A stretch of 23,349 nt of DNA, taken from a virus. The stretch covers positions 1-23,349 of the IMG/VR virus record IMGVR_UViG_3300006803_000099, one strand, 5' to 3'. How positions within the stretch are numbered: the stretch's first letter is position 1; each line of letters starts with the position of its first letter. The position numbers and the translations under genes were made by a program. Below, one piece after another: positions 2,406 to 16,129 of the stretch. The notes under the pieces were generated by a model. The model did no database searches, had not been told where the DNA came from, and saw only the letters and a program-made list of their open reading frames with translations.

Positions 2406-3391
2406 TGACATATTCCCTCCAAGCAGTCGCAAGCTGGCAAGACGTGGTCGACCAGATTGAGACCTTCGCAGCGGCCAGAGGCTGGACGACATCGGGTGGC
2501 AGCGGCTCGGCGGCGAACCTCACGAACCCTTCTACCGGGACCGTCACGGTGGTCACGGCGGGAGGGTCGAGTCTTTCCCTGTCTGCTGATGGCGGGGCGA
2601 TGACCTGCGACAACCGCTCGCCGTGGCTGAACGGGACATACCCGGGGTCGCCCGTAGTCCTAAACCCGGTTCAGGTCCACCTCTTCGGAAACAACAGCCC
2701 TTACTCTGCACCTGACACGGAGCCCTTCCTCACAGCCGTCGTGGGTTTCGGTTACAACAGCTACCGCCACATCTACATCGGCACGATGGTCGCGGCAGGC
2801 AATTACACGAACGGCGACGTCATTTCCTGCAACGACTTCAGCAGGTCCTACACCGACCTGTATCCACTCAATGCACTGAGCCGTTACCTTTTCAATGCCT
2901 ATCAGAGCCACCCCGGGGCTGGACATGGTGGAGTGAAGATCACCCATGCGGACAACGCGAACACATGGCGGACCTTCAGGACTCCCTCCGCGTCGTCTAA
3001 CAGCTTTCCGGACAACTACAATATTCTCTATGGAACCGAGGTCTTCGGGGGCAATGGGGATGGGATCAACGACGGCCTCACTTATCGGGCCCACGCGGAC
3101 TATGCCGCAGGGCAGTTGCTAGTTCCTGTGAACTTATACTGCCCCGACGGGGCCGACGGGGTGGACTACCGGATCAGGTCGTTAGGGCACGTCTCGGGCG
3201 CTCGTCTAGTCGACATGGACGGTCTGGAACCCGAGCAGCAAATCTCAATATCCGCTGACAACTGGAGGGTCTTCCCGGAGTTCTCCAAACGGTCCGACGC
3301 TTTCTTGGACTGGTCGGAGATCGGGACCACGACATATTGGCCCTATGAGTTGTCCGGGATGTTCGGATTGGCGTATCGGGAGAACAGCTAA
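2405..3391 (+). CDS. Virion structural protein of the tail-tip locus (unknown function)
   Basis: 328 residues from the ATG in the TAATG overlap with the preceding gene. The frame stays open further upstream, but only this start fits the gene boundary. Composition and size are similar to the gene before it (Gly/Thr/aromatic-rich, no membrane segment). It starts with a helical segment (ASWQDVVDQIETFAAARGWT) that resembles the start of its neighbour, followed by a beta-rich body with YRHIYIGTMVAAGNYTNGD in the middle. That motif recalls a second conserved structural protein that travels with the first in siphophage tail modules. The pair may be diverged homologues or parts of one complex; this is inference. 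It lies between the tape measure and the distal-tail-like protein, so a tail-tip role is likely. Confidence 0.72.
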   Translation: MTYSLQAVASWQDVVDQIETFAAARGWTTSGGSGSAANLTNPSTGTVTVVTAGGSSLSLSADGGAMTCDNRSPWLNGTYPGSPVVLNPVQVHLFGNNSPYSAPDTEPFLTAVVGFGYNSYRHIYIGTMVAAGNYTNGDVISCNDFSRSYTDLYPLNALSRYLFNAYQSHPGAGHGGVKITHADNANTWRTFRTPSASSNSFPDNYNILYGTEVFGGNGDGINDGLTYRAHADYAAGQLLVPVNLYCPDGADGVDYRIRSLGHVSGARLVDMDGLEPEQQISISADNWRVFPEFSKRSDAFLDWSEIGTTTYWPYELSGMFGLAYRENS

Positions 3392-3394
3392 GTC

Positions 3395-5095
3395 ATGGCG
3401 TTCGCGGGCACCTTAAACTCAGCCCTGATCTACTTCGCCAATGGCGACTATGCAGTAGACAACACGGGTAAAACGAACCTTGCTGATCCCCAGCAGGGCT
3501 TTTACCTCGACCCCTTCGGTGCTGGCGCTCACACGGAGAGCCTCGTCGACGTCGGGCGGGCGTCTGGCGGAGGCTACCGCCAAGTCACGTTTGTTGAGGA
3601 CTTCTACAACCGCGTCCACTTCGTCCCGAGTCCATTCACCTTTGGCCCTATCGCGTCCGATACGACACGGGTCATGGCAGTCTGGAACGCCCACCTTGTC
3701 CCGAACGACTTCACCGCTCTGGGCCTCGACGGCGGGATCAACGTCACCTACGGCGGCGACTCGATCCCGTTCACCTTTGGCCCTCTCGAAGAGGTCGACC
3801 TGCCGTTCACAGCCCTGCAAAACGGGACGCCCGCGTTCAGCGAGTTCACGACGTTCACCTTCTCGCTGAAGGACCCCTACAACATCCTGTTTACGGGCGA
3901 CCGAGCAGTCCTGATCGAGCGCGGCCCGAACTGGCGTGACCCAATGGTCGAGACCTACGAGTTCCGCACCGAGATCGTCCACCGCAGCCGCTCGGGCAAG
4001 GAGCAGCGCCGGGCGCTACGACAGGAGCCTCGCAGAACGCTCGCCTACACCCTGTCGACGTGGGGCAACACGAGACGCGACGCAGAGGGCCTGCTAACCC
4101 GCTGGCGTCGTCGGACAGTCGTCACCCCAGTATGGCCGTGGCGCACTACCACGTCGACTACGGCTGTCGCGGCGACCACGACCCTAAACCTCGACTACGT
4201 CCCAAACTGGGCCGTTCCAGACATGAACGTGGTCATCGAACATCCCGGGATGCCCGCCCGAATCAATGGCACCATTGCATCGGTCGGGGCCAGCAGCATC
4301 GTTCTCGTGATCGGCCTCGCCTACGAGGTCCCTGCCGGGGCCACGGTGACGCAGATGCTGACGGCACGGGTGCGCGACGCGCAGAAGGTCGACAGGGTGA
4401 CAGCGGACGTGGCCGAGGTCCCGTTCGTCTTCGACATCACGCCGGGCATCGACCCGATCTACACGCCGCCCGCCGCGTCCGTGTTCCACGATGGCTACGA
4501 GGTCGTGCTGACTGACCCGAACTGGTCAGCAGGGATCGAGGAAACGTGGGATATGCCGCTCGACGTCGTTGACGCGAATTGGGGTGTGAAGGTCTTCTAC
4601 GAGTATCAGGACTTCGTGCAATACACGATGCGCCTGCTCTACTCCGGCCTGCGGGAGACCAAGGTCCAAGACGTGATCGACCTGTTCTACCGGCAGAAGG
4701 GGATGCGCGGCGAGTTCTGGTATCCGACCCGGGGGCGCGACGTCGAGCCCGGCTACCAGTTGGACGAGAGCGCCAGCACGATCCGGATCGCGGGCTCGGA
4801 CTTCGCCACGGACTGGTCGGATCAGTCAACTAATCAGGCGATCATCGTCTGGCTGACCGATGGCACATACTTCACCCGGAGCGTCACGGACCTGTCGACT
4901 ACGACGGACGTCTTCGGGACGGACTCGGTCATCACCTTGGATGATGTCTGGCCCTATGACATACCCACGAGCGACGTCAGGAAAATCTCATGGATGATGC
5001 GCTGTCGGTTCGCAACTGACACACTGCGCGTCGAGTGGCTAAACGACGAGAAGGCCAACGTGCAGTTCTCGCTTTCGACATTGGAGGTTCTATGA
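3395..5095 (+). CDS. Distal-tail-like / tail structural protein with two related beta domains
   Basis: 566 residues; start ATG follows GGGAGA. Two regions appear to share one fold. The N-terminal part (about 1-240) ends in VETYEFRTEIVHRSRSGKEQ and RRALRQEPRRT. The C-terminal part (about 360-566) contains GYEVVLTDPNWSAGIEETWD and FYRQKGMRGEFWYPT. Phrases of the type 'RSGKEQRRALR' and 'KGMRGEFWYPT' are typical of DUF2460-like/distal tail proteins, which form the ring joining the tail tube to the hub. The position between the tape measure and the DUF2163 hub matches the gene transfer agent order (tape measure, distal tail, hub). It is longer than single-domain distal tail proteins (about 200-250 residues), which suggests a duplicated or fused form. 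Its stop overlaps the next start (ATGA). Confidence 0.72.
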   Translation: MAFAGTLNSALIYFANGDYAVDNTGKTNLADPQQGFYLDPFGAGAHTESLVDVGRASGGGYRQVTFVEDFYNRVHFVPSPFTFGPIASDTTRVMAVWNAHLVPNDFTALGLDGGINVTYGGDSIPFTFGPLEEVDLPFTALQNGTPAFSEFTTFTFSLKDPYNILFTGDRAVLIERGPNWRDPMVETYEFRTEIVHRSRSGKEQRRALRQEPRRTLAYTLSTWGNTRRDAEGLLTRWRRRTVVTPVWPWRTTTSTTAVAATTTLNLDYVPNWAVPDMNVVIEHPGMPARINGTIASVGASSIVLVIGLAYEVPAGATVTQMLTARVRDAQKVDRVTADVAEVPFVFDITPGIDPIYTPPAASVFHDGYEVVLTDPNWSAGIEETWDMPLDVVDANWGVKVFYEYQDFVQYTMRLLYSGLRETKVQDVIDLFYRQKGMRGEFWYPTRGRDVEPGYQLDESASTIRIAGSDFATDWSDQSTNQAIIVWLTDGTYFTRSVTDLSTTTDVFGTDSVITLDDVWPYDIPTSDVRKISWMMRCRFATDTLRVEWLNDEKANVQFSLSTLEVL

Positions 5096-5928
5096 CCTAC
5101 GACGCATTTGACCAAGGCAGGGCGACAGGGTCGCCCATCGAGACCTACCTGTTCACCCACGGGCTGAACCCGACCGACTACTACGCCTTCACGGATGCGG
5201 AGCGCAGCTTCGATCTGGCGGGCAAGACCTATGTGGCCGTGCCGATCTTGCGCGACGGGATCACCACTTCAGGGGGGCGTTCCGAACGCAACGACCTGAA
5301 GATCAAGATGTCGGCCAAGGAGCCGATGCTGAATCTGTTCCAGATTTACCCACCAGACCAGCCGATCTCCGTCCTGATAAAATCAGGGCACTTTGAGGAC
5401 GGTGATGCAGAGTTCGTTCCGACCTTCAACGGCAAGGTCATCAACGTCAAGACTATGTCCGACGGCTGGGCAGAGGTTCTGTGCCGCCCTCTCTGGACCG
5501 CAGCCCGTCAAGGCGGCCTGCGCAGGCATTATCAGCTTGGCTGCCCTCACGTCCTCTACGGAGACCAGTGCGGGGCCTCCGAGACGGCGGTGACGACCAC
5601 TGCGGCTGCTTTCCCGTCGCTAAACAAGGTGACACTGGCGGGCGGCTGGGAGGGTGCTTACGCCAAGAGCAAGTTCCGGGGCGGCTGGCTGGAATGGAAC
5701 GTGGGGTCCAACGTCCATAGGCGCACGATCCTCTCTCTATCGGGAGACACTCTGACCCTGTCCGGGCCCGTAATGGACCTGACCGTCGGGTATGCCATGC
5801 GCGTCGTCATCGGGTGCAACAGACAGATGACGGACTGCGCGGACATCCACGCAAACATCCACAACTTCGGGGGTCAGCCTTGGATTCCCACGAAGAACCC
5901 GATCAACACCAACCCGTTCTTCTCGTGA
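5092..5928 (+). CDS. Tail hub protein, DUF2163/phage BR0599 family, with four-cysteine set
   Basis: 278 residues. The ATG at the ATGA junction is chosen over upstream in-frame starts because GGAGG sits 5 nt before it and it matches the gene boundary. The N-terminal half matches the DUF2163 style (ETYLFTHGLNPTDYYAFTDA, then FNGKVINVKT). The C-terminal half is the BR0599 type, with CPHVLYGDQC and CNRQMTDC, that is C-x8-C and C-x6-C, and the ending NFGGQPWIP. In the Rhodobacter gene transfer agent the equivalent hub protein holds an iron-sulfur cluster through four cysteines, and lambda gpL is also an Fe-S protein. The same use here is inferred from the cysteine spacing. It should lie at the tail tip below the distal tail ring. 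Confidence 0.88.
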   Translation: MTYDAFDQGRATGSPIETYLFTHGLNPTDYYAFTDAERSFDLAGKTYVAVPILRDGITTSGGRSERNDLKIKMSAKEPMLNLFQIYPPDQPISVLIKSGHFEDGDAEFVPTFNGKVINVKTMSDGWAEVLCRPLWTAARQGGLRRHYQLGCPHVLYGDQCGASETAVTTTAAAFPSLNKVTLAGGWEGAYAKSKFRGGWLEWNVGSNVHRRTILSLSGDTLTLSGPVMDLTVGYAMRVVIGCNRQMTDCADIHANIHNFGGQPWIPTKNPINTNPFFS

Positions 5929-5938
5929 AGGAATTACT

Positions 5939-6190
5939 ATGCCCCTACCTTGGTTAGCCTCCCTTCTGATCGGTCTCGCGATCTCCGTTGTCGCTTACCT
6001 GATTATGCCCAAGCCAAAGCAGCCCAAGCCGCCCGAGGCGAAGGACCTAGAAGGCCCAACCGCAGAAGCGGGTCGACCTGTGCCTGTTGTTTTTGGTAGG
6101 ATGCGGGTCAAGGGCCTCAATTTGCTGTGGTATGGAAATATCTCGAAGCGGGTTTACGAGGTCGATGCAGAAGGAGGTGGCAAGAAATGA
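5939..6190 (+). CDS. Small tail-tip locus protein with N-terminal hydrophobic segment
   Basis: 83 residues; AAGGA precedes the ATG. One hydrophobic helix at about residues 4-23 (ASLLIGLAISVVAYLIM) is followed by a Lys/Pro-rich linker (PKPKQPKPPEAKD). Then comes a segment of the type GPTAEAGRPVPVVFG and RVKGLNLLWYG, which recurs in small proteins encoded just before the tail tip (J-like) gene of siphophages. Function is unknown; it may be a tail-tip assembly or membrane-insertion factor. The stop overlaps the next start (ATGA). Strong Shine-Dalgarno sequence for the next gene (GAAGGAGGT) lies inside its last codons. Confidence 0.75.
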   Translation: MPLPWLASLLIGLAISVVAYLIMPKPKQPKPPEAKDLEGPTAEAGRPVPVVFGRMRVKGLNLLWYGNISKRVYEVDAEGGGKK

Positions 6191-6411
6191 CGGTCGACCA
6201 TGACACAGGCAGAGACATCGTCCTGAAAGCCGCAGACGCCCGTGTCTGTGGCTTTTGTGGCCGGGGCCAGAATATCTGGGGTGCCGACAAGGGCATCACC
6301 GTGCGCGGGCTTCTGGCTGGTGAATACACGGTTGGTATGGCCGAGGACATGAACGACGCTATGGCGAATCGTATCGCCGCAGCCGCAAGAAAGAGGGTGT
6401 CTGGTGGGTAA
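6187..6411 (+). CDS. Small tail-locus protein with CxxC motif
   Basis: 74 residues. The ATG at the ATGA overlap is chosen because AAGGAGGT lies 8 nt upstream; the frame is open further upstream inside the previous gene. The single motif is VCGFCGRG (CxxC near residue 20), followed by a helical region (AGEYTVGMAEDMNDAMANRI). Similar small proteins with a 'CaRGaR' turn often sit immediately before the tail tip gene in siphophages, without a known role. The CxxC could bind metal or form a disulfide; with only two cysteines a complete zinc site would need partners. It overlaps the following gene by 8 nt. Confidence 0.7.
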   Translation: MTVDHDTGRDIVLKAADARVCGFCGRGQNIWGADKGITVRGLLAGEYTVGMAEDMNDAMANRIAAAARKRVSGG

Positions 6412-8674
6412 AGGTGGCGGCGGAAAACGTAGAGTAATTGACTACCACATCAACATGCATTGGGGCGTCTGTTGGGGTCCTGTGGACTCGATAGAAGAGA
6501 TCAGGTTCAAGGAAAAAGTCGCTTTTAGTGGTTCTGTGTCCTCGAACAATTCGCTCTACATAGACGAGCCGGAACTGTTTGGAGGCGACGAGGCGGAGGG
6601 CGGGGTCCGGGGCTATGTGGACTTCATGCTGGGCGACTCGGGTCAGGTTCTCAGCGACGTTACGGCGGGCCAACTAGGGTTGACGAGCAGCACCGCCCCG
6701 GGCTTCCGGGGGATCACGTCGCTGTGGTTCCACAACGGGGATGTCTCAGAAAACAGGGGGTTTATGATCTCCCAAAACAATCCATACATCTCGACGCTGG
6801 ACGTCCGGGTCGCTCGCTATTCGAGGCACCCAAATCTCAACGTGGCCCATGACCTCATTGGGGACGATGCGAATCCGGCCCACATGATTTTCGAGATTTA
6901 CACGAACAACGACTGGGGTCTCGGCTGGCCCGTCGCCGCGTTTAATCTGACAAGCTGGCGAGCCGTGGCCGAGACCTTGTTCGACGAGAACTTTGGCCTG
7001 TCCATGATGTGGGTCACACCCGGAGAAGTCGAAGCCTTCGTGGCGGAGATTATCGACCACATCCAAGCGACGATCTACACCGACCCGACAACGGGCTTGG
7101 TCGAGATCAAATTGCTACGGGACGACTACGACCTGCTGACTGCGAAGACCTTCAGCCCGGACAACTGCACCTTAGAGGACACCGAGCGCCGGGCCCTCGA
7201 AGACACAGTCAACGAGATTAGCGTCGTCTACACCGACCCAGAAACGGAGGAAGAACTCACCCTCCAAGTGCAGGACCTCGCCAACATCGCGGCCCAGAAT
7301 GGACTCATTAAAGGTGACAGCCGGAACTACTACGGCGTCCGGAACGCGGAACTGGCGTGGTCTTTAGGTGAACGCGATTTACGCGAGGCGTCCTACCCCT
7401 TGTTCAGCACAAAGATCATCGCAGACCGAAGCCAAGGTCAGATCATCCCCGGCGAGGTTATCGAACTACAGTGGCCCGAAGAGGGCATTACCAGCATGGC
7501 CTGCCGTGTCCTCGACATCGCCAACGGCAAGAAGGGTGACGGCAAGATGATCCTGTCCGTGGCCGAGGACATCTGGTCATTAGACCGAGCCGAGTTCGAG
7601 GTTCCCCCAACCACCAACTGGGAACTGCCCTCGGTTTCGGCTACCGCCTTCGCCCAACAGAGCGCGATCACAGCGCCCTATCCCGTCCTATCACGGCAGG
7701 GGCTGACCCCGGCATACGCCGACGTCTACGTCGGCCTGCTCGGCCAGCAGAACGATCTGGATACTGAGTCCTTCACGCTCACCACCGAGGTCGTGAACCC
7801 GGCTGGTGATACAGTCGAGGCCAACTACAGCGGGATGCTCCAAGCGCCGTTTGGTGTGTTGGCCGTGGCTTTCGATGCCGAGGTCGAGTCTGTCGTGGCC
7901 GAGGCCGACATGCCCGCGATGTCAAACGACTTTGGCAGCTACGCCACAGGGCAACTCTTCTACATTGGCGACAGCACGGACGACACGCTGAACGAGATCG
8001 TCATGCTGAAGAGTTACAGCGTAGGCAACTGGACGATCAAGCGCGGCATCTGGGATACCGTGCCCCGTGCATGGCCTCTCTCTACCGAGGTCTGGTATTT
8101 CTCGACCAGCTTCTCCGCAGCCGACCCGAACGTCCGTTCCGCAGGAGCCCCTGTCAGCTACTGGCTGCGGCCTAAGACGCTCGCCGGGACGTTGCCTAAA
8201 CTGTCCGCCGTCGAACTGGTCTACACGCCCAGCGAGCGGCCCCACCTACCCTTCCGCCCGGCCAATGTAGGCGTCTCCGGGGACACGGGCTTCGGCCTGC
8301 TCGACCTCGGAACGCCAGCCCCGTTCACCGTGAGTTGGGCGAACCGAAACCGGGCGCTAGAAGACACCGTCGCCCTGCACTGGGATGAAGCCTCGGTGGC
8401 TGTCGAGACCGGCCAGACGACCACGATCCAGTTCCTTGACGCGAGCGACGACAGCATGATCGTCCAATATGTTGGACTGACCGGGTCCAGCTTTGAGGTC
8501 CCGTCTGGGGGAGGGCCCACGACCGCGTGGTCGACCAAGATGCGGGTCTTCTCTGTCAGGGACGGACTCGAGTCGCTCCAGTATTTTGAGCGGCTGGTCG
8601 ACATAGACTTTGATTTTGCAGGAACTAGCGGCTATGGTTCCGCATATGGCGAAACTTACGGAACAGGGGCGTAG
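6404..8674 (+). CDS. Tail tip / host specificity (J-like) protein
   Basis: 756 residues from a GTG start (MGKGGGGKR) preceded by AAGAGG; no ATG fits the boundary. The N-terminal region has YHINMHWGVCWGPVDSIEEI and GGDEAEGGVRGYVDFMLG, typical of the conserved N-terminus of phage tail tip proteins. The middle (about 290-400) reads like the Phage-tail_3 type domain (ADRSQGQIIPGEVIELQWP, then SMACRVLDIANGKKGDGK). The C-terminal third looks like fibronectin/Ig-type beta modules (PAPFTVSWANRNR, TTTIQFLDA). It closes the tail and usually contacts the host receptor. It is the last gene of the structural tip and is followed by fibre genes. It is shorter than lambda gpJ (1132 residues), which fits adhesion being handed to the separate downstream fibres. 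Confidence 0.87.
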   Translation: MGKGGGGKRRVIDYHINMHWGVCWGPVDSIEEIRFKEKVAFSGSVSSNNSLYIDEPELFGGDEAEGGVRGYVDFMLGDSGQVLSDVTAGQLGLTSSTAPGFRGITSLWFHNGDVSENRGFMISQNNPYISTLDVRVARYSRHPNLNVAHDLIGDDANPAHMIFEIYTNNDWGLGWPVAAFNLTSWRAVAETLFDENFGLSMMWVTPGEVEAFVAEIIDHIQATIYTDPTTGLVEIKLLRDDYDLLTAKTFSPDNCTLEDTERRALEDTVNEISVVYTDPETEEELTLQVQDLANIAAQNGLIKGDSRNYYGVRNAELAWSLGERDLREASYPLFSTKIIADRSQGQIIPGEVIELQWPEEGITSMACRVLDIANGKKGDGKMILSVAEDIWSLDRAEFEVPPTTNWELPSVSATAFAQQSAITAPYPVLSRQGLTPAYADVYVGLLGQQNDLDTESFTLTTEVVNPAGDTVEANYSGMLQAPFGVLAVAFDAEVESVVAEADMPAMSNDFGSYATGQLFYIGDSTDDTLNEIVMLKSYSVGNWTIKRGIWDTVPRAWPLSTEVWYFSTSFSAADPNVRSAGAPVSYWLRPKTLAGTLPKLSAVELVYTPSERPHLPFRPANVGVSGDTGFGLLDLGTPAPFTVSWANRNRALEDTVALHWDEASVAVETGQTTTIQFLDASDDSMIVQYVGLTGSSFEVPSGGGPTTAWSTKMRVFSVRDGLESLQYFERLVDIDFDFAGTSGYGSAYGETYGTGA

Positions 8675-8677
8675 ACC

Positions 8678-8956
8678 ATGGCGGGAACAACAACGAACAA
8701 AAACTGTGTGACGACCGGGTGGATTCTACTCGCGGAGAACGTCACGGCAGCTTGGGTGCAGATGCAAGGCGTGGGCCATGTCCGGGTCCACGTCGGCGCA
8801 GCCGACCCCGGCGCTGGCAGTGAGGTTGGCGTCATCATCGACGGCACGAACCTGTCGACGATCCCGCTAGTCGGATTGGAAAGTGGGGTCGACCAAGTCT
8901 GGGGCCGCGCCATGAACAATGCGGAAACCGTTGCCGTCCTGACTACGGGGGGCTGA
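8678..8956 (+). CDS. Small hypothetical protein in adhesion module
   Basis: 92 residues, starting 3 nt after the tail tip gene. No signal peptide or membrane segment. It looks beta-rich (WILLAENVTAAWVQMQGVGH, VRVHVGAADPG, VGVIIDGTNLS). The pattern resembles a small beta-sandwich decoration or fibre-associated domain, but no family is recognised. It ends 1 nt before the fibre gene. A virion role is inferred from position only. Confidence 0.65.
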   Translation: MAGTTTNKNCVTTGWILLAENVTAAWVQMQGVGHVRVHVGAADPGAGSEVGVIIDGTNLSTIPLVGLESGVDQVWGRAMNNAETVAVLTTGG

Positions 8957-8957
8957 C

Positions 8958-9581
8958 ATGGCATCAAGAATATCAGCAGGGGCGCTGGCCCTTAACACTG
9001 ACTGGGTCCTCGGCGACGCTTGGAAGGCGGGCATGGATGCCAACCTCCTAAAACTGTCCGTCATGTCTATGCCCATCGTCCTGTCGCGAGGGACATCGCT
9101 CCCGGGCGGCACCGAAGGGCAGGTCTATATCGTCCCGACAGGTGACGCCAACGCCGAGGACATCGCCGTCTACGACGAGGCTGTGTGGACCTACTTCACC
9201 CCGGCTGAAGGATTCTTGGCCTACGTCGCCGACGAGGACGCCTTTGTCCGGTTCGACGGTGCGGTCTGGGATGTCTACTCGACCCCGATCCGATACAACG
9301 TCCAGAGCGGGACAACCTACACCCTACTCGAAGCGGACCTTGATGGACGGACTTGCGTCCTGTTCACCAACGCAGCCGCCGTGACCTTCACGATCCCTGC
9401 TGGCCTGACCGGGCTGCAACCCGTCATGTGCATCTCAGAAGGTGCCGGGGGTGTGACGAACACAGCCAGCGGGACGACGTTGAACAGCAAGAATGGTCTG
9501 GTCGCTGCCGAGGGGGCCTGCTGGTCGATCATCCCGCGAGGCGGCGACGTCTTCCGGCTTTCGGGGGACCTGACAGTATGA
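8958..9581 (+). CDS. Tail fibre-type protein, DUF2793-like
   Basis: 207 residues. The N-terminal half contains TEGQVYIVPTGDANAEDIAV, WTYFTPAEGFLAYVADED and FDGAVWDVY, the recurring pattern of DUF2793 proteins (phage and prophage fibre-type proteins, frequent in Alphaproteobacteria). The C-terminal half (about 115-207) is a second beta-rich module, NVQSGTTYTLLEADLDGRTC and TIPAGLTGLQPVMCI, of the kind found at the ends of fibres. No chaperone or enzyme motif is seen. It lies directly behind the tail tip genes, so an adsorption role is likely. Its last base pairs form an ATGA overlap with the next small gene. Confidence 0.75.
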   Translation: MASRISAGALALNTDWVLGDAWKAGMDANLLKLSVMSMPIVLSRGTSLPGGTEGQVYIVPTGDANAEDIAVYDEAVWTYFTPAEGFLAYVADEDAFVRFDGAVWDVYSTPIRYNVQSGTTYTLLEADLDGRTCVLFTNAAAVTFTIPAGLTGLQPVMCISEGAGGVTNTASGTTLNSKNGLVAAEGACWSIIPRGGDVFRLSGDLTV

Positions 9582-9814
9582 CACCAACTATGCGACTCTT
9601 ACTGATGACTACGGCCCTCGGGGGTGGTGGTGGTGGTGGCGGTGGCGGCACTGGCTTCGTCAATATGTATTCGGTCAACCGCATCACCACCATGCGGGTC
9701 CCTGTCGACAGGGTCTCAATGTATTCGGTCAACCGCATCACCACCATGCGGGTCCCTGTTGACAGGGTCACAATGTATTCGGTCAACCGCATCACCGTCA
9801 TGCGCCTGCCGTAA
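9578..9814 (+). CDS. 78-residue polyglycine and 18-residue-repeat protein
   Basis: The ATG at the ATGA overlap with the fibre gene is used; the frame is also open upstream inside that gene. The product has a hydrophobic start (MRLLLMTTAL), a run of ten glycines (codons 15-24), then MYSVNRITTMRVPVDRV repeated: two full 18-residue units and a third ending as MYSVNRITVMRLP. No family is recognised. Location between two fibre genes suggests an adhesin tip, fibre adaptor or membrane-active peptide; all of these are guesses. Near identity of the repeats at the DNA level indicates recent duplication. The shadow frame on the other strand also reads through the repeat but has no gene-like boundaries. 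Confidence 0.62.
   Translation: MTPTMRLLLMTTALGGGGGGGGGGTGFVNMYSVNRITTMRVPVDRVSMYSVNRITTMRVPVDRVTMYSVNRITVMRLP
9620..9649 (+). repeat. Ten consecutive glycine codons
   Basis: The run consists of one GGG, six GGT and three GGC codons within the small repeat protein. It is a simple trinucleotide tract that could vary in length by slippage. Glycine runs of this kind occur in the receptor-binding tips of some phage adhesins. Confidence 0.9.
9665..9811 (+). repeat. 54-bp tandem repeat, 2.7 copies
   Basis: Units begin at 9665, 9719 and 9773 (ATGTATTCGGTCAACCGCAT in each). Units one and two differ by only a few bases in 54; the third copies the first 13 codons and then ends at the stop codon. The period is a multiple of three and preserves the reading frame. 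Confidence 0.95.
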
Positions 9815-9828
9815 GAAAGGAAAACCCA

Positions 9829-10881
9829 ATGGCTGCACCAGTCTTCACCTTCTTCTCGCTCTACCAAGAGGGCGTCACCGTCACTCCCAACACTGGGGCC
9901 ATCCGGCCTGAATACGGGAGCAATGGATACACCACTATGGGGTGCCCGGGATTCGACATATACGGGGGCTCCGCATATGACGCAGAGGTCGCCCTCGACA
10001 TCTCTGGCGACAGTCTCTCCGATGGGTGGCTCCGCTTCCGTTACGTTATGAACAGGCACAGCGCCCTTCAGAACATGGTCGTGTTCTCCGGACCGACCAC
10101 GGACCTGCTTCGCATCCGCAACGTGAACGCCTACTCGACGGACCCCGACCTCCGGTTTGAATACTGGGGCGGTGCGTCTTGGACCCAGATCGGGGTGGAC
10201 ATCGGCTCTTCGGAGAACGTGGACATCGACGTCCACTGGCACATCGACGGCGCGGCGGGAGCGTTCGAGATTTACCTCAACGGGGTGCTGTCTCAAAGCG
10301 TCTCTGGCGACACGCTCCATACCGCCGACACGACCATCGACACGGTCGCGTTCTTCGGGTCTTCAAACACCACGTCCTACGAGACGTCGTTCTGGCACAT
10401 CTTCGTCGACTCGGTTGACAGCCGGGGCCTCTACATGGACGTGGGAGGGACCAGTTTTGCGGGCTTCTACAATGACTTTTCGGGTGGGGATTACACCGAT
10501 GTGAACGAAAGGCCCGGAGAAAGCAACTGGGACCTCGACTACATCATCGGTGACGCTGCGGGCGAGAAGTTCACGGGGATCAACACCGCCATCAACGCCT
10601 CTCTCGAAGCATCCGGGACGGTCGAGACGGTGATCGTCGGCTTCTCCGGCGCGGCCCAGACGGAACCTGCTCTCTACTCCAAGCCTCTGATCCGAATCGG
10701 TTCGACCGACTACAGCCCGACCGGGTCGGTGCAGGGGAGATCGGAAGTTTCCCAGACCCCCAGCTACCGAGGCTTCTATGGGATCGAGGTTCCGAACGAC
10801 CCGTCGACCGGGGTGGCTTGGGCCAACGTCGCTGCGGTCGAGGCCGCTGAGTTCGGGTGGGAGATGTCGGCCACGGCCTAA
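9829..10881 (+). CDS. Lectin-like (LamG/concanavalin A-type) tail fibre protein
   Basis: 350 residues; AAGAAAGGAAAA precedes the ATG. The N-terminal about 215 residues look like a concanavalin A/LamG-type beta sandwich: DISGDSLSDGWLRFRYVM, VVFSGPTTDLLRIRNVN, WHIDGAAGAFEIYLNGVLSQ and DTVAFFGSSN are the strand pattern of such carbohydrate-binding domains. The C-terminal part (about 225-350) has PGESNWDLDYIIGDAAGEKF and a beta-rich end; similar modules serve for trimerisation or attachment in phage structural proteins. Likely a receptor-binding fibre. It is the last gene before the lysis module and is followed by a strong hairpin. No glycan-cleaving motif is visible. The fold call is pattern-based. 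Confidence 0.65.
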   Translation: MAAPVFTFFSLYQEGVTVTPNTGAIRPEYGSNGYTTMGCPGFDIYGGSAYDAEVALDISGDSLSDGWLRFRYVMNRHSALQNMVVFSGPTTDLLRIRNVNAYSTDPDLRFEYWGGASWTQIGVDIGSSENVDIDVHWHIDGAAGAFEIYLNGVLSQSVSGDTLHTADTTIDTVAFFGSSNTTSYETSFWHIFVDSVDSRGLYMDVGGTSFAGFYNDFSGGDYTDVNERPGESNWDLDYIIGDAAGEKFTGINTAINASLEASGTVETVIVGFSGAAQTEPALYSKPLIRIGSTDYSPTGSVQGRSEVSQTPSYRGFYGIEVPNDPSTGVAWANVAAVEAAEFGWEMSATA

Positions 10882-10907
10882 ACCGTAGACAATGGTCAGT
10901 TGATCCT

Positions 10908-10939
10908 TTAGGCTCCCGGGCAACAACTCGGGAGCCTAA
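10908..10939 (+). promoter_or_regulatory. 11-bp perfect hairpin containing the endolysin ribosome-binding site
   Basis: TTAGGCTCCCG pairs exactly with CGGGAGCCTAA across a 10-nt loop. The 3' arm contains the only good Shine-Dalgarno sequence (GGGAG) for the endolysin ATG at 10942. There is no T-tract after the stem, so a simple terminator is unlikely. The structure would hide the ribosome-binding site when folded. Confidence 0.7.
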
Positions 10940-10941
10940 TC

Positions 10942-12003
10942 ATGTCTGGAATCGTTCGCAGCATCACGCACTGGACCGCAGGAGGCGGCAGAGCGTCCGA
11001 CGTCGACAAGAAGCACTACCACAGGATCACCGAACACGACGGCACCATCGTCGACGGTAAGAAAGAGATCGAGGACAACATCGTCACGTCTGACGGAGCC
11101 TATGCAGCCCACACCCTGAACCTGAACACAGGGTCCGCTGGGTTCTCTATGGCGGGGATGCGGGGGGCCAAGGACACCGATGACCTTAACTGGGCCGGGC
11201 CGAGCCCGATCAACGAGCGCCAGTTCGAGGCCCACTGCAAGATGCTGGCCGAGTTCCACCTATCCTATGGGGTCGAGGTCAACGGTCGGACCTGTCTGAC
11301 CCACGCCGAGGTCCAACCGACACTGGGCGTCAAGCAGAAGGGGAAGTGGGACTTCACCCGGCTGCCGTTCAAGCCAGAACTGCGCGGAGCGATCCCAGTC
11401 GGGAACTACATGCGCGAGCGCGTCCGGTCCTACATGCCGGCCCTCCTGCCGATCTCCAAGAACCGCCCCACCCTGCGCCAAGGCGACAAGGGGATGTTTG
11501 TCGAGGACCTTCAGGAACTGGTGGCTGGGGTAGGCATCTTCTCGGGCAAGATCGACGGCCAGTTCGGGCCGCGCACGGAGCAGGCTGTCCTCGCCTTCCA
11601 AAGCCATTCCGGAATCGTCGCGGACGGAGTCGTCGGGCCGCGCACATGGGAGGCCCTGATGCGGGCTCAACCCATGCAGGAGCGCGACGTGACAGAGGCC
11701 GACCTGCGGAAGTCCGGATCGCGGACCATCAAGGCCGCAGACAGCGCAGAGACGGCAGGCAAAGCAAGTGCAGCGGCTGTCGTGGGCCTCGGGTCTCTGG
11801 ACGCCGTCATGGACCTCGTAGACAGGCTAGGAGAGGCCGATTCGTCCCTCCAAGCGGCGCAGCAAGCCATGCTCGCCAACTGGCATATCCTGATCGTCAT
11901 TGGCATCGGCCTGACGGGATACTCATGGGGGCCGAGGATCATGCAGCAGATCAGAGCGATCCGCACAGACGACGCCCAGTCCGGGGCGAACCTCAAACGA
12001 TGA
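10942..12003 (+). CDS. Endolysin: N-acetylmuramoyl-L-alanine amidase with PG-binding domain and C-terminal TM
   Basis: 353 residues. Residues 1-150 are an Amidase_2/PGRP domain cutting the bond between muramic acid and the stem peptide: ITHWTAGGG, HYHRI, YAAHTLNLNTGS and LTHAEVQPTLGVKQKGKWD. Likely zinc ligands are H10, H121 and D137. Residues 176-241 are a PG_binding_1 domain (LRQGDKGMFVEDLQELV, IDGQFGPRTEQAVLAFQ, VVGPRTWEAL). A linker (250-305) leads to a hydrophobic helix at about 313-330 (NWHILIVIGIGLTGYSWG) and a short basic tail. The membrane segment is unusual for a soluble endolysin and could tether the enzyme or help permeabilise the membrane. The gene starts the lysis module; its start is covered by a hairpin. 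The stop overlaps the next ATG. Confidence 0.93.
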   Translation: MSGIVRSITHWTAGGGRASDVDKKHYHRITEHDGTIVDGKKEIEDNIVTSDGAYAAHTLNLNTGSAGFSMAGMRGAKDTDDLNWAGPSPINERQFEAHCKMLAEFHLSYGVEVNGRTCLTHAEVQPTLGVKQKGKWDFTRLPFKPELRGAIPVGNYMRERVRSYMPALLPISKNRPTLRQGDKGMFVEDLQELVAGVGIFSGKIDGQFGPRTEQAVLAFQSHSGIVADGVVGPRTWEALMRAQPMQERDVTEADLRKSGSRTIKAADSAETAGKASAAAVVGLGSLDAVMDLVDRLGEADSSLQAAQQAMLANWHILIVIGIGLTGYSWGPRIMQQIRAIRTDDAQSGANLKR

Positions 12004-14439: not shown

Positions 14440-14675
14440 GTCTGTTCCTCTTTTTCCACGTTGTCGGTCTCCGAGAGGTCTCCGTGTTCCTTCTTGCTCC
14501 AGTAGCAGTAAACCTCCCCACGAGTATCCGGGGCCATCCGTATCGCCCCACTGGGTTCGTCTATGCCGAGGAAGATCGCCTCGTGATAGAATCCCATGCA
14601 GCCACACTTCACCCTCACATAGTCTCCCGCTTCGGGAAGGGCTTCAGTGTAATGTTTCCATGGACCCCAACTCAT
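14436..14675 (-). CDS. Small hypothetical protein
   Basis: 79 residues; AGAGGAG precedes the ATG. The core looks like a small beta barrel (GDYVRVKCGCMGFYHEAIFL, VYCYW) with a CGC motif and an acidic C-terminal tail (ETDNVEKEEQT). No family is recognised. It starts within the end of the alanine-rich gene (4-nt overlap) and its stop overlaps the next ATG. Confidence 0.68.
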   Translation of the reverse strand: MSWGPWKHYTEALPEAGDYVRVKCGCMGFYHEAIFLGIDEPSGAIRMAPDTRGEVYCYWSKKEHGDLSETDNVEKEEQT

Positions 14676-14893
14676 TCTATTTCTCCTCTTGGTTGGTATT
14701 TTAGTTTAGCATCCTCGGCAGCATAAGCATCAGCACGAGCATCACGAGCAGCCTCCCGGGCAGCATAAGCATCCTCCGCAGCAGCATAAGCATCAGCATA
14801 AGCAGCAGCACGAGCAGTATAAGCAGCATTAGCAGCATCATAAGCGGCTTCAGCAGCATCACGAGCAGCTTTTAGGTCTTCAAGTTTAGTCAT
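14672..14893 (-). CDS. Alanine-rich coiled-coil repeat protein
   Basis: 73 residues, start ATG with AAGGAG 9 nt upstream. The protein is more than 40 per cent alanine and consists of degenerate units such as AAYDAANAAYTARAAAYADA and YAAREAARDARADAYAAEDA. It is predicted as one long helix with tyrosines and charged residues at regular spacing. The DNA is low-complexity, built around GCT/GCA/TAT-type codons, and looks different from the GC-rich codon use of its neighbours. Function unknown; it could be a scaffold or a bundle-forming protein. Its first five codons and leader are nearly identical to those of a small ORF at the right end of the window. Confidence 0.7.
   Translation of the reverse strand: MTKLEDLKAARDAAEAAYDAANAAYTARAAAYADAYAAAEDAYAAREAARDARADAYAAEDAKLKYQPRGEIE
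14706..14872 (-). repeat. Degenerate alanine-codon repeat
   Basis: On the plus strand the words AGCATAAGC, AGCACGAGC and AGCAGC recur throughout. Period is mostly a multiple of three bases, so the reading frame is kept. It covers most of the alanine-rich gene and is a plausible site of expansion and contraction. Confidence 0.85.
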
Positions 14894-15099
14894 TCTGTTT
14901 CTCCTTTCGCACGCGGTCTGATCGACTGGCTGGGAGCATAGGTGCGCATGCATTGAGCCCACGTTTTGCTGCCTCCGAGCGGTGGCGTGGCTTCTGCTAT
15001 GACCACCAGCGCCTCTCCGCAGGCCATCTGACTAGGGTATGTCATGCTGTATGTGTCCGCATTGATGTGGACGAGCAAGATCGTGAGGAGGGGCGTCAT
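14890..15099 (-). CDS. Small hypothetical protein with hydrophobic N-terminus
   Basis: 69 residues. The ATG is chosen at the ATGA overlap with the GapR-like gene. The N-terminus (MTPLLTILLVHINADTYSMT) is moderately hydrophobic and might act as an export signal but lacks a basic start. Two cysteines (MACGEALVV and WAQCMRTY) could form a disulfide if exported. The C-terminus is basic. No family is recognised. Confidence 0.6.
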   Translation of the reverse strand: MTPLLTILLVHINADTYSMTYPSQMACGEALVVIAEATPPLGGSKTWAQCMRTYAPSQSIRPRAKGETE

Positions 15100-15419
15100 A
15101 GGAGACCGTCGTAGTCGTCTTCCGGGCCATCGTCGTCCTCCGGCATATAGTCCCGGAGCGACGTGCCACTGTCGATCCCGAGGGCTTCGCGATACATCTC
15201 CAGAACGGCCTCTTCCTCGGCGATGTCGTCGGGGTTCCGCTTCCGCAGGGCCATGACCTTCTTCAATATCTGAACTTCGTAGCCCCGACCTTTGGCCTCC
15301 GCCCACAACTCCTTCAGGGCGTCGGCGAACTCCTTCTTCTCTGCTTCCAGCCGCTCCGCCCGTTCGATGAACGAGCGGAGTTCTTGGGACACAACCCGGT
15401 ATGATGCATCATCAGACAT
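15096..15419 (-). CDS. GapR-like nucleoid protein, DUF2312 family
   Basis: 107 residues. Residues 6-80 closely follow the GapR/DUF2312 pattern: LRSFIERAERLEAEKKEFAD, LKELWAEAKGRGYEVQILKK and VMALRKRNPDDIAEEEAVLE. In Caulobacter, GapR clamps overtwisted DNA ahead of replication forks and RNA polymerase and stimulates topoisomerases. The family is almost confined to Alphaproteobacteria, which supports the host guess. The phage version carries an extra acidic tail (YMPEDDDGPEDDYDGLL) absent from the bacterial protein I know. It lies between an acidic-tailed protein and a small ORF with stop/start overlaps on both sides. Likely roles are supporting phage replication and transcription or altering the host nucleoid; inference. 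Confidence 0.88.
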   Translation of the reverse strand: MSDDASYRVVSQELRSFIERAERLEAEKKEFADALKELWAEAKGRGYEVQILKKVMALRKRNPDDIAEEEAVLEMYREALGIDSGTSLRDYMPEDDDGPEDDYDGLL

Positions 15420-16129
15420 CAGAGCAGATCGTCATCGTCGAGATCGTCGAGATCGTCGAGATCGTCGGGGCCGGGGTTGATCCCTACGAGGTCGTCCTCG
15501 TCCGCGACCAGATCATACTCGCCGATGTCGTCGAGCCCGGGGGCGCGGCCTTCGCGCAGGTCGTCAGCGTCGGCCACGTCCAGCGTCTTCTTGAAGACCA
15601 TGAACTCGTCGCGCTTGATCTTAGTGACAGCGCCCTTCTGCTTGGGTGGGATGGTCTCGCCGTCGATCTGGAAGACGAAGTCGAGGGTGCCGTCCGAGTA
15701 GCGGTAGAACGAGTTGTTCTTGAACGACTGGGTGGCCCACTCAATCGCTGGCCCCTGTGATTCGCTTTGCACGGAGGGTCTGCTGGTCTTGCCAGCAGGG
15801 GCACGGTCGACGGGCTTGGGCTCTGCGGTTCGTGGTCCTTTGGACGCGACGATCTTCCACTCGTCGAGACTGTCGAAACACAGGGCGTGTTCGCGACTGT
15901 CGACCATGCCACCGGGGAACAAAATCGCACGGCTCCCGACCAGACGGGCGAGGCCGTCAAGCGTGATCGGATGGGGCGGTCGGTAGGGGTTGTCCGCTTG
16001 CGGTGCCCAAGCGATCACGGGGGTCCGCAGCACGGCACCGCTCTCGCCGATCTCGACGATGTAGGTCTCGGGCGCTGCCGAGATCATGGTGGGCATGAAC
16101 TGCCCTCTGGAGTCCGGGAGAGACGACAT
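15419..16129 (-). CDS. Hypothetical protein with acidic repeated C-terminal tail
   Basis: 236 residues; GAGGA precedes the ATG. The N-terminal about 85 residues seem to form a globular domain (SAAPETYIVEIGESGAVLRT, HPITLDGLARLVGSRAILFP). A basic, proline-containing linker follows (TAEPKPVDRAPAGKTSRPSV). A second domain at about 125-185 holds YRYSDGTLDFVFQIDGETI and VTKIKRDEFMVFKKTLDV. The tail is strongly acidic and ends DDLDDLDDLDDDDLL. Acidic tails are common in phage single-strand DNA-binding proteins, but I see no OB-fold signature, so that is only a possibility. Its stop shares a base with the start of the GapR-like gene. Confidence 0.65.
   Translation of the reverse strand: MSSLPDSRGQFMPTMISAAPETYIVEIGESGAVLRTPVIAWAPQADNPYRPPHPITLDGLARLVGSRAILFPGGMVDSREHALCFDSLDEWKIVASKGPRTAEPKPVDRAPAGKTSRPSVQSESQGPAIEWATQSFKNNSFYRYSDGTLDFVFQIDGETIPPKQKGAVTKIKRDEFMVFKKTLDVADADDLREGRAPGLDDIGEYDLVADEDDLVGINPGPDDLDDLDDLDDDDLL
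15437..15463 (-). repeat. Three 9-bp repeats coding for (DLD)n acidic tail
   Basis: GTCGAGATC occurs three times in tandem on the plus strand, coding on the minus strand for the repeated DDL units of the acidic tail. The unit keeps the reading frame. Confidence 0.88.

Follow-up and report, generated by a model that had tools for sequence, protein, structure and literature searches.

DUF2793, the N-terminal domain of the fibre considered here, also forms the N-terminus of the tail fibre of RcGTA (PMC8265664, PMC10883770). In T-even-type phages, a separate adhesin, gp38, is located at the fibre tip (PMC12892980). Mass spectrometry of CsCl-purified virions of Roseovarius phage RPP1 identified two proteins, gp81 and gp82, which were noted there as having no recognised domains (PMC4193335). 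Gp60 of RcKickapoo (76 aa) and gp57 of RcTiptonus, both from Rhodobacter phages, are annotated as hypothetical proteins of 75-76 aa. We found no earlier description of the repeat array treated below among openly licensed papers. We analysed a complete IMG/VR record of 23,349 bases (hereafter the window), whose nearest annotated phages are Casjensviridae, and focused on its small open reading frame at 9578-9814 (+). We propose, with a probability of about 0.5, that this ORF encodes a miniature virion adaptor, which would link a tail fibre to a lectin-like protein of the phrog_6368 family by presumed docking.

Architecture and coding status of the repeat gene

The ORF lies directly behind a tail fibre gene (8958-9581, +), which contains DUF2793 (aa 28-104) and a conserved distal domain (aa about 110-207), with matches to PF10983 (E 9.8e-12) and phrog_21978 (E 1.5e-35). 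An HMM of the distal domain built without the window still finds it at E 2.4e-20, and the domain terminates at the stop codon (9579-9581), which the start of the ORF overlaps as ATGA. A Shine-Dalgarno-like GGGGGA (9563-9568, +) is placed 9 nt ahead of the ATG. The 78-aa product reads MTPTMRLLLMTTALGGGGGGGGGGTGFVN, then MYSVNRITTMRVPVDRVS, MYSVNRITTMRVPVDRVT and MYSVNRITVMRLP. It begins with the leader MTPTMRLLLMTTAL (9578-9619, +), which is free of acidic residues, also across positions 2-16, is 60% hydrophobic, and is comparable to the MMSLLLSSVSASA-type leaders found at the same place elsewhere. Ten glycine codons follow (9620-9649, +; residues 15-24; GGG, five GGT, GGC, GGT and two GGC), presumably encoding a flexible spacer. 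Tandem-repeat analysis then delimits three units, namely unit 1 (9665-9718, +) and unit 2 (9719-9772, +), both of 18 aa and identical at 52 of 54 bases, and a C-terminal unit 3 (9773-9811, +) truncated to 13 aa (33/39 bases identical). The array (9665-9804; period 54, 2.6 copies, 95% matches) is by a wide margin the top-scoring tandem repeat of the window, and the self-similarity of the protein at period 18 reaches z 13.3 against shuffles. The ten glycines, the 18-residue repeats and the ATGA overlap with a DUF2793-like fibre, all reported in the preliminary description, are thus borne out, except that the unit printed there had 17 residues, whereas the actual one is MYSVNRITTMRVPVDRV followed by S or T.

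The coding signal of the ORF (0.327 bits per codon) is comparable with that of in-frame pieces of the neighbouring genes (0.371 +- 0.118) and far from the off-frame values (-0.423 +- 0.197), and an identical copy is present in two other IMG/VR contigs. The ORF is a real coding frame. When we searched the product against Pfam and PHROG profiles, nothing rose above the noise caused by the glycine run, and a PDB sequence search returned only glycine linkers. The single-sequence fold was of low confidence (pLDDT 59.7), with no structural match found in the PDB. Searches by tblastn and for related loci with the 78-aa query also gave no match, but the low-complexity query makes both uninformative; indeed, the related-locus search missed the two contigs that carry the identical copy. 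Seven single MYSVNRIT matches in IMG/VR were rejected as chance, since all of them were antisense or out of frame.

Short repeats were also observed in other parts of the window. An Ala/Asp/Tyr-rich protein encoded at 14672-14962 (-) contains 21-base repeats (AAYADAYAAAEDAYAAREAAR), with two SNPs relative to contig L007 inside the gene (14738 and 14756). The protein encoded at 15419-16129 (-) ends in DDLDDLDDLDDDDLL, derived from a perfect 9-base repeat, a C-terminus reminiscent of the acidic tail found in single-strand-binding proteins of phages. A perfect 15-base repeat (VTDPP) occupies the very end of the contig (23308-23349), where the assembly probably stopped.

A recurring cassette with a variable middle slot

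The next gene (9829-10881, +), which starts after a gap of 14 nt, encodes a phrog_6368 protein (E 3.6e-19; E 6e-9 with an HMM built without the window), which is predicted to adopt a concanavalin-A-like jelly roll and is the presumed partner of the repeat protein. Its model (pLDDT 68.4, pTM 0.72) matches the jelly rolls of galectin-8, neurexin and others. Matches to clostridial neurotoxin receptor-binding domains reflect the same generic fold, and we do not take them as kinship.

The order of fibre distal domain, slot gene and phrog_6368 gene recurs in about 16 distinct phages. These neighbours agree with the adhesion locus proposed in the preliminary description, and its suggestion of a tip or adaptor protein fits a place between a conserved fibre distal domain and a phrog_6368 protein. 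In other phages, the gene after the same distal domain mostly starts at the fibre stop and first encodes a short hydrophobic leader; Asp and Glu are missing from residues 2-16 in 60 of 71 distinct slot genes, compared with 67 of 330 control genes. The rest of the slot proteins is highly variable and includes Gly-rich, FN3-like, discoidin-like and RCC1-like parts as well as proline-rich runs. Those encoded beside phrog_6368 usually end in tandem beta-type repeats of 14-21 residues, with the last copy truncated. Most relatives have a large domain between leader and repeats, as in DSS3_MAL1, MD18, RcXuper and DFL12phi1, where an array of this type closes the large slot protein and phrog_6368 follows. 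This domain is absent from the window protein, which equals a large slot protein, MAL1_84 for example, reduced to its leader and C-terminal repeats, and from the miniatures of the same plan, RcKickapoo gp60 with its 18-aa repeats, RcTiptonus gp57 and the products of two IMG/VR loci, L128 (94 aa, MMSLLLSSVSASAVIAVGGGG..., 20-aa repeats) and L133 (66 aa, 14-aa repeats). A scan of genome contigs with the fibre distal domain as query returned two loci, neither of them with phrog_6368.

Separately, the slot genes of L076, L083, L100 and L104, which have no phrog_6368 gene beside them, close with extended arrays of PPGFF(A/S/G), FFPP or SFPP; this is a different low-complexity solution for the slot.

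Association of terminal repeats with phrog_6368

We scored repeats by an unsupervised periodicity measure with a threshold of z >= 3. As a result, 12 of 16 slot genes with an adjoining phrog_6368 gene were positive at the C-terminus, compared with 4 of 63 without it, and these four were Pro/Phe-rich. The Fisher p-value of 5e-8 (2e-7 without the window) is inflated by the relatedness of the phages. The link was first noticed in phage records and then checked in 33 fresh IMG/VR loci fetched by phrog_6368 alone; the regular expression and the first profile were written after examples had been seen, whereas the periodicity score and this second set of loci were not. Among the 33 loci, the gene upstream of phrog_6368 ends in repeats in L125, L127, L128, L130, L131, L133, L135 and L141. 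Recognisable repeats were missing upstream of phrog_6368 in L129 and in RD-1410W1-01. The pair also exists on its own, as DSS3P8 and DSS3_MAL1 encode, far from the fibre, a 123-124-aa protein of about six repeats whose gene overlaps a phrog_6368 gene.

Several related arrangements were noted beside this pattern. Proteins of 123-124 aa encoded at L037:3630-4004 and L042:3291-3662 consist almost entirely of about six ~20-aa repeats. Their genes overlap a phrog_6368 gene by ATGA and lie close to tRNA genes, well away from the tail cluster. A phrog_6368 protein of L125 (4001-5380) itself carries seven C-terminal repeats of 15-20 aa (QNQRMFGIVGG, AQQRMYGILGS and others), and its gene precedes two others of phrog_6368, with four tandem copies in this locus. 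In L139 (4624-5562), L142 (5832-6749) and L144 (4989-5654), repeats such as VTKLSRYDVL, ASKFVSFNVL and RVSQVAVETL, possibly a related strand repeat, are encoded downstream of distant phrog_6368-like genes.

The strand motif taken for the linked repeats is [ST]-x-[YFH]-x-[VI]-[LI], and by eye MY-S-V of the window resembles RMYGIL of L125 and FYSII of L128. A repeat profile made from the other phages ranked the window ORF 111th of 5482 and 651st of 3604, and 36th of 3604 after addition of the L125 repeats, all within noise. In leave-one-out runs the profile finds most of the other members but misses DSS3P8_013, and it places RPP1 gp81 at noise level; it is strict, and the window repeat could be convergent. 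We therefore base the family membership of the window ORF on its slot, leader, period, truncated last copy and partner gene, and not on the profile. The preliminary description recognised no family, which holds for sequence profiles, whereas by position and architecture a family exists.

Sequence variation among assemblies

The two contigs with the identical copy carry 251 bases around the ORF without any difference; their overlaps with the window span 11.1 and 14.8 kb and contain 10 and 18 differences, respectively. The near-identity of the repeat copies makes the recent duplication suggested in the preliminary description plausible. In contrast, its idea that the array changes length quickly found no support, since the array is identical in three assemblies that differ at 10 and 18 sites elsewhere; such identity is weak evidence against rapid change, as minority lengths may hide in assemblies. 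RcKickapoo and RcMenchie likewise share their repeat copy number.

Along the same contigs, the stretch of 8.5 kb with tail and adhesion genes (window 2930-11439) is free of SNPs, and the next 1.2 to 3.4 kb contain 8 to 11 differences. This uneven distribution perhaps reflects recent exchange.

Proposed role and alternatives

The observed basis of the adaptor reading is the coding frame, the three-gene order, the property of the leader and the tie between repeats and phrog_6368; in addition, the repeat-bearing gp81 of RPP1 and its phrog_6368 partner gp82 are virion proteins (PMC4193335). In the proposed arrangement, the hydrophobic, acid-free leader would dock on the distal domain of the preceding gene's fibre, the ten glycines would serve as a flexible spacer, and the three C-terminal 18-residue beta-type repeats would form a platform holding the phrog_6368 jelly-roll protein of the next gene. 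The ORF may then be seen as a stripped-down slot protein; in most relatives, a large domain, probably for receptor binding, separates the leader from the repeats.

The main rival, which we regard as rather unlikely, is that the repeats themselves contact the receptor as the tip of a miniature adhesin, with the phrog_6368 protein acting independently. The slot elsewhere indeed holds modules resembling receptor-binding domains (discoidin-like, FN3-like, Gly-rich and RCC1-like), always directly after the fibre distal domain, and the separate gp38 at the fibre tip of T-even-type phages (PMC12892980) offers a parallel. However, the same kind of repeat is appended to proteins that already possess large domains, the repeats track which gene comes next and do not vary freely, and the pair of repeat and phrog_6368 also occurs without any fibre.

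It is improbable that the ORF is a remnant, that is, a larger slot adhesin that lost its middle domain, with a drifting residue and tandem duplication as a by-product. Both the correspondence to the two ends of MAL1_84 and other large slot proteins and the near-identity of the tandem copies would suit such decay, but the codon signal is as strong as in the neighbours, and the three assemblies show no difference. Moreover, miniatures recur independently, in RcKickapoo/RcTiptonus as well as in L128 and L133, and retain the leader, the start overlap and the gene order.

Fibre chaperones are often encoded between structural genes, and the ORF is likewise a small gene between two of them, so that a non-virion assembly factor, such as a chaperone or a capping peptide for the fibre or the phrog_6368 protein, was also considered. 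We judge this quite improbable, since RPP1 virions contain the repeat-bearing gp81 (PMC4193335) and the larger slot proteins contain adhesin-type domains. Finally, an action of the array at the DNA or RNA level (binding sites, hairpins or a recombination target), with the ORF incidental, is extremely improbable despite short palindromes within the units and a fold of the strand more stable than in dinucleotide shuffles (z -3.3), because protein sequence, codon usage and repetition reproduce this fold (z -1.07 against synonymous nulls of the same protein and -0.68 with repetition kept), the period is divisible by three, the coding potential is normal, and the equivalent proteins elsewhere share anatomy, not DNA.

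Under the adaptor reading, a formerly unassigned 78-aa repeat ORF becomes the smallest instance of an attachment cassette that recurs among phages and in which the C-terminal repeats may act as a docking handle for phrog_6368 lectin-like proteins. If so, this would explain many "hypothetical" small genes beside fibres in Roseobacter and Rhodobacter phages. The cassette also suggests how phages may swap receptor-binding parts while both joints are kept. More tentatively, the phages of marine and purple alphaproteobacteria might possess a plug-in system undescribed so far, in which the short leader would clip any protein to a shared fibre end and a C-terminal array of beta repeats would recruit a jelly-roll lectin, with the window ORF as its minimal form. 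RcKickapoo, whose host is R. capsulatus YW1, and RPP1 are isolated phages, so the docking hypothesis is readily testable.

Comparison with known systems

The polyglycine-rich gp38 tip adhesin of T-even-type phages, represented by Salmonella phage S16, resembles the window protein in being a separate gene product after the fibre, in its tip position and in its glycine richness; this likeness is an analogy only. Unlike the window protein, gp38 is far larger, lacks terminal repeats and forms a polyglycine sandwich, which a protein of 78 aa with a single Gly10 run is too small to accommodate.

RPP1 gp81 shares with the window protein its C-terminal repeats (period 19, z 6.6) and the phrog_6368 protein that follows, gp82, but it is 208 aa long and has neither a comparable leader nor a DUF2793 fibre gene directly before it. 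The slot proteins of DSS3_MAL1 (gp84), Phaeobacter phage MD18 and RcXuper (gp69) agree with the window in leader, terminal repeats and neighbours, and differ in about 450-550 residues inserted between leader and repeats, which in MD18 are F5/8-type-C-like.

The miniatures RcKickapoo gp60 and RcTiptonus gp57 occupy the same slot, overlap the fibre stop, precede the same downstream family, and carry a hydrophobic leader and C-terminal repeats of 18 or 20 aa with a truncated third copy. They differ from the window protein in lacking a glycine run and in their repeat sequence, and BLASTP between this type and the window protein was not significant. The L128 protein (IMG/VR contig 3300035181_000829) has four strands with a period of 20 aa, a GNIG-type loop where the window protein has a different one, and another sequence. 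Like the window protein, it combines a leader, a GGGG stretch and near-identical repeats, the last copy cut to ...YSIILP, and is followed by phrog_6368.
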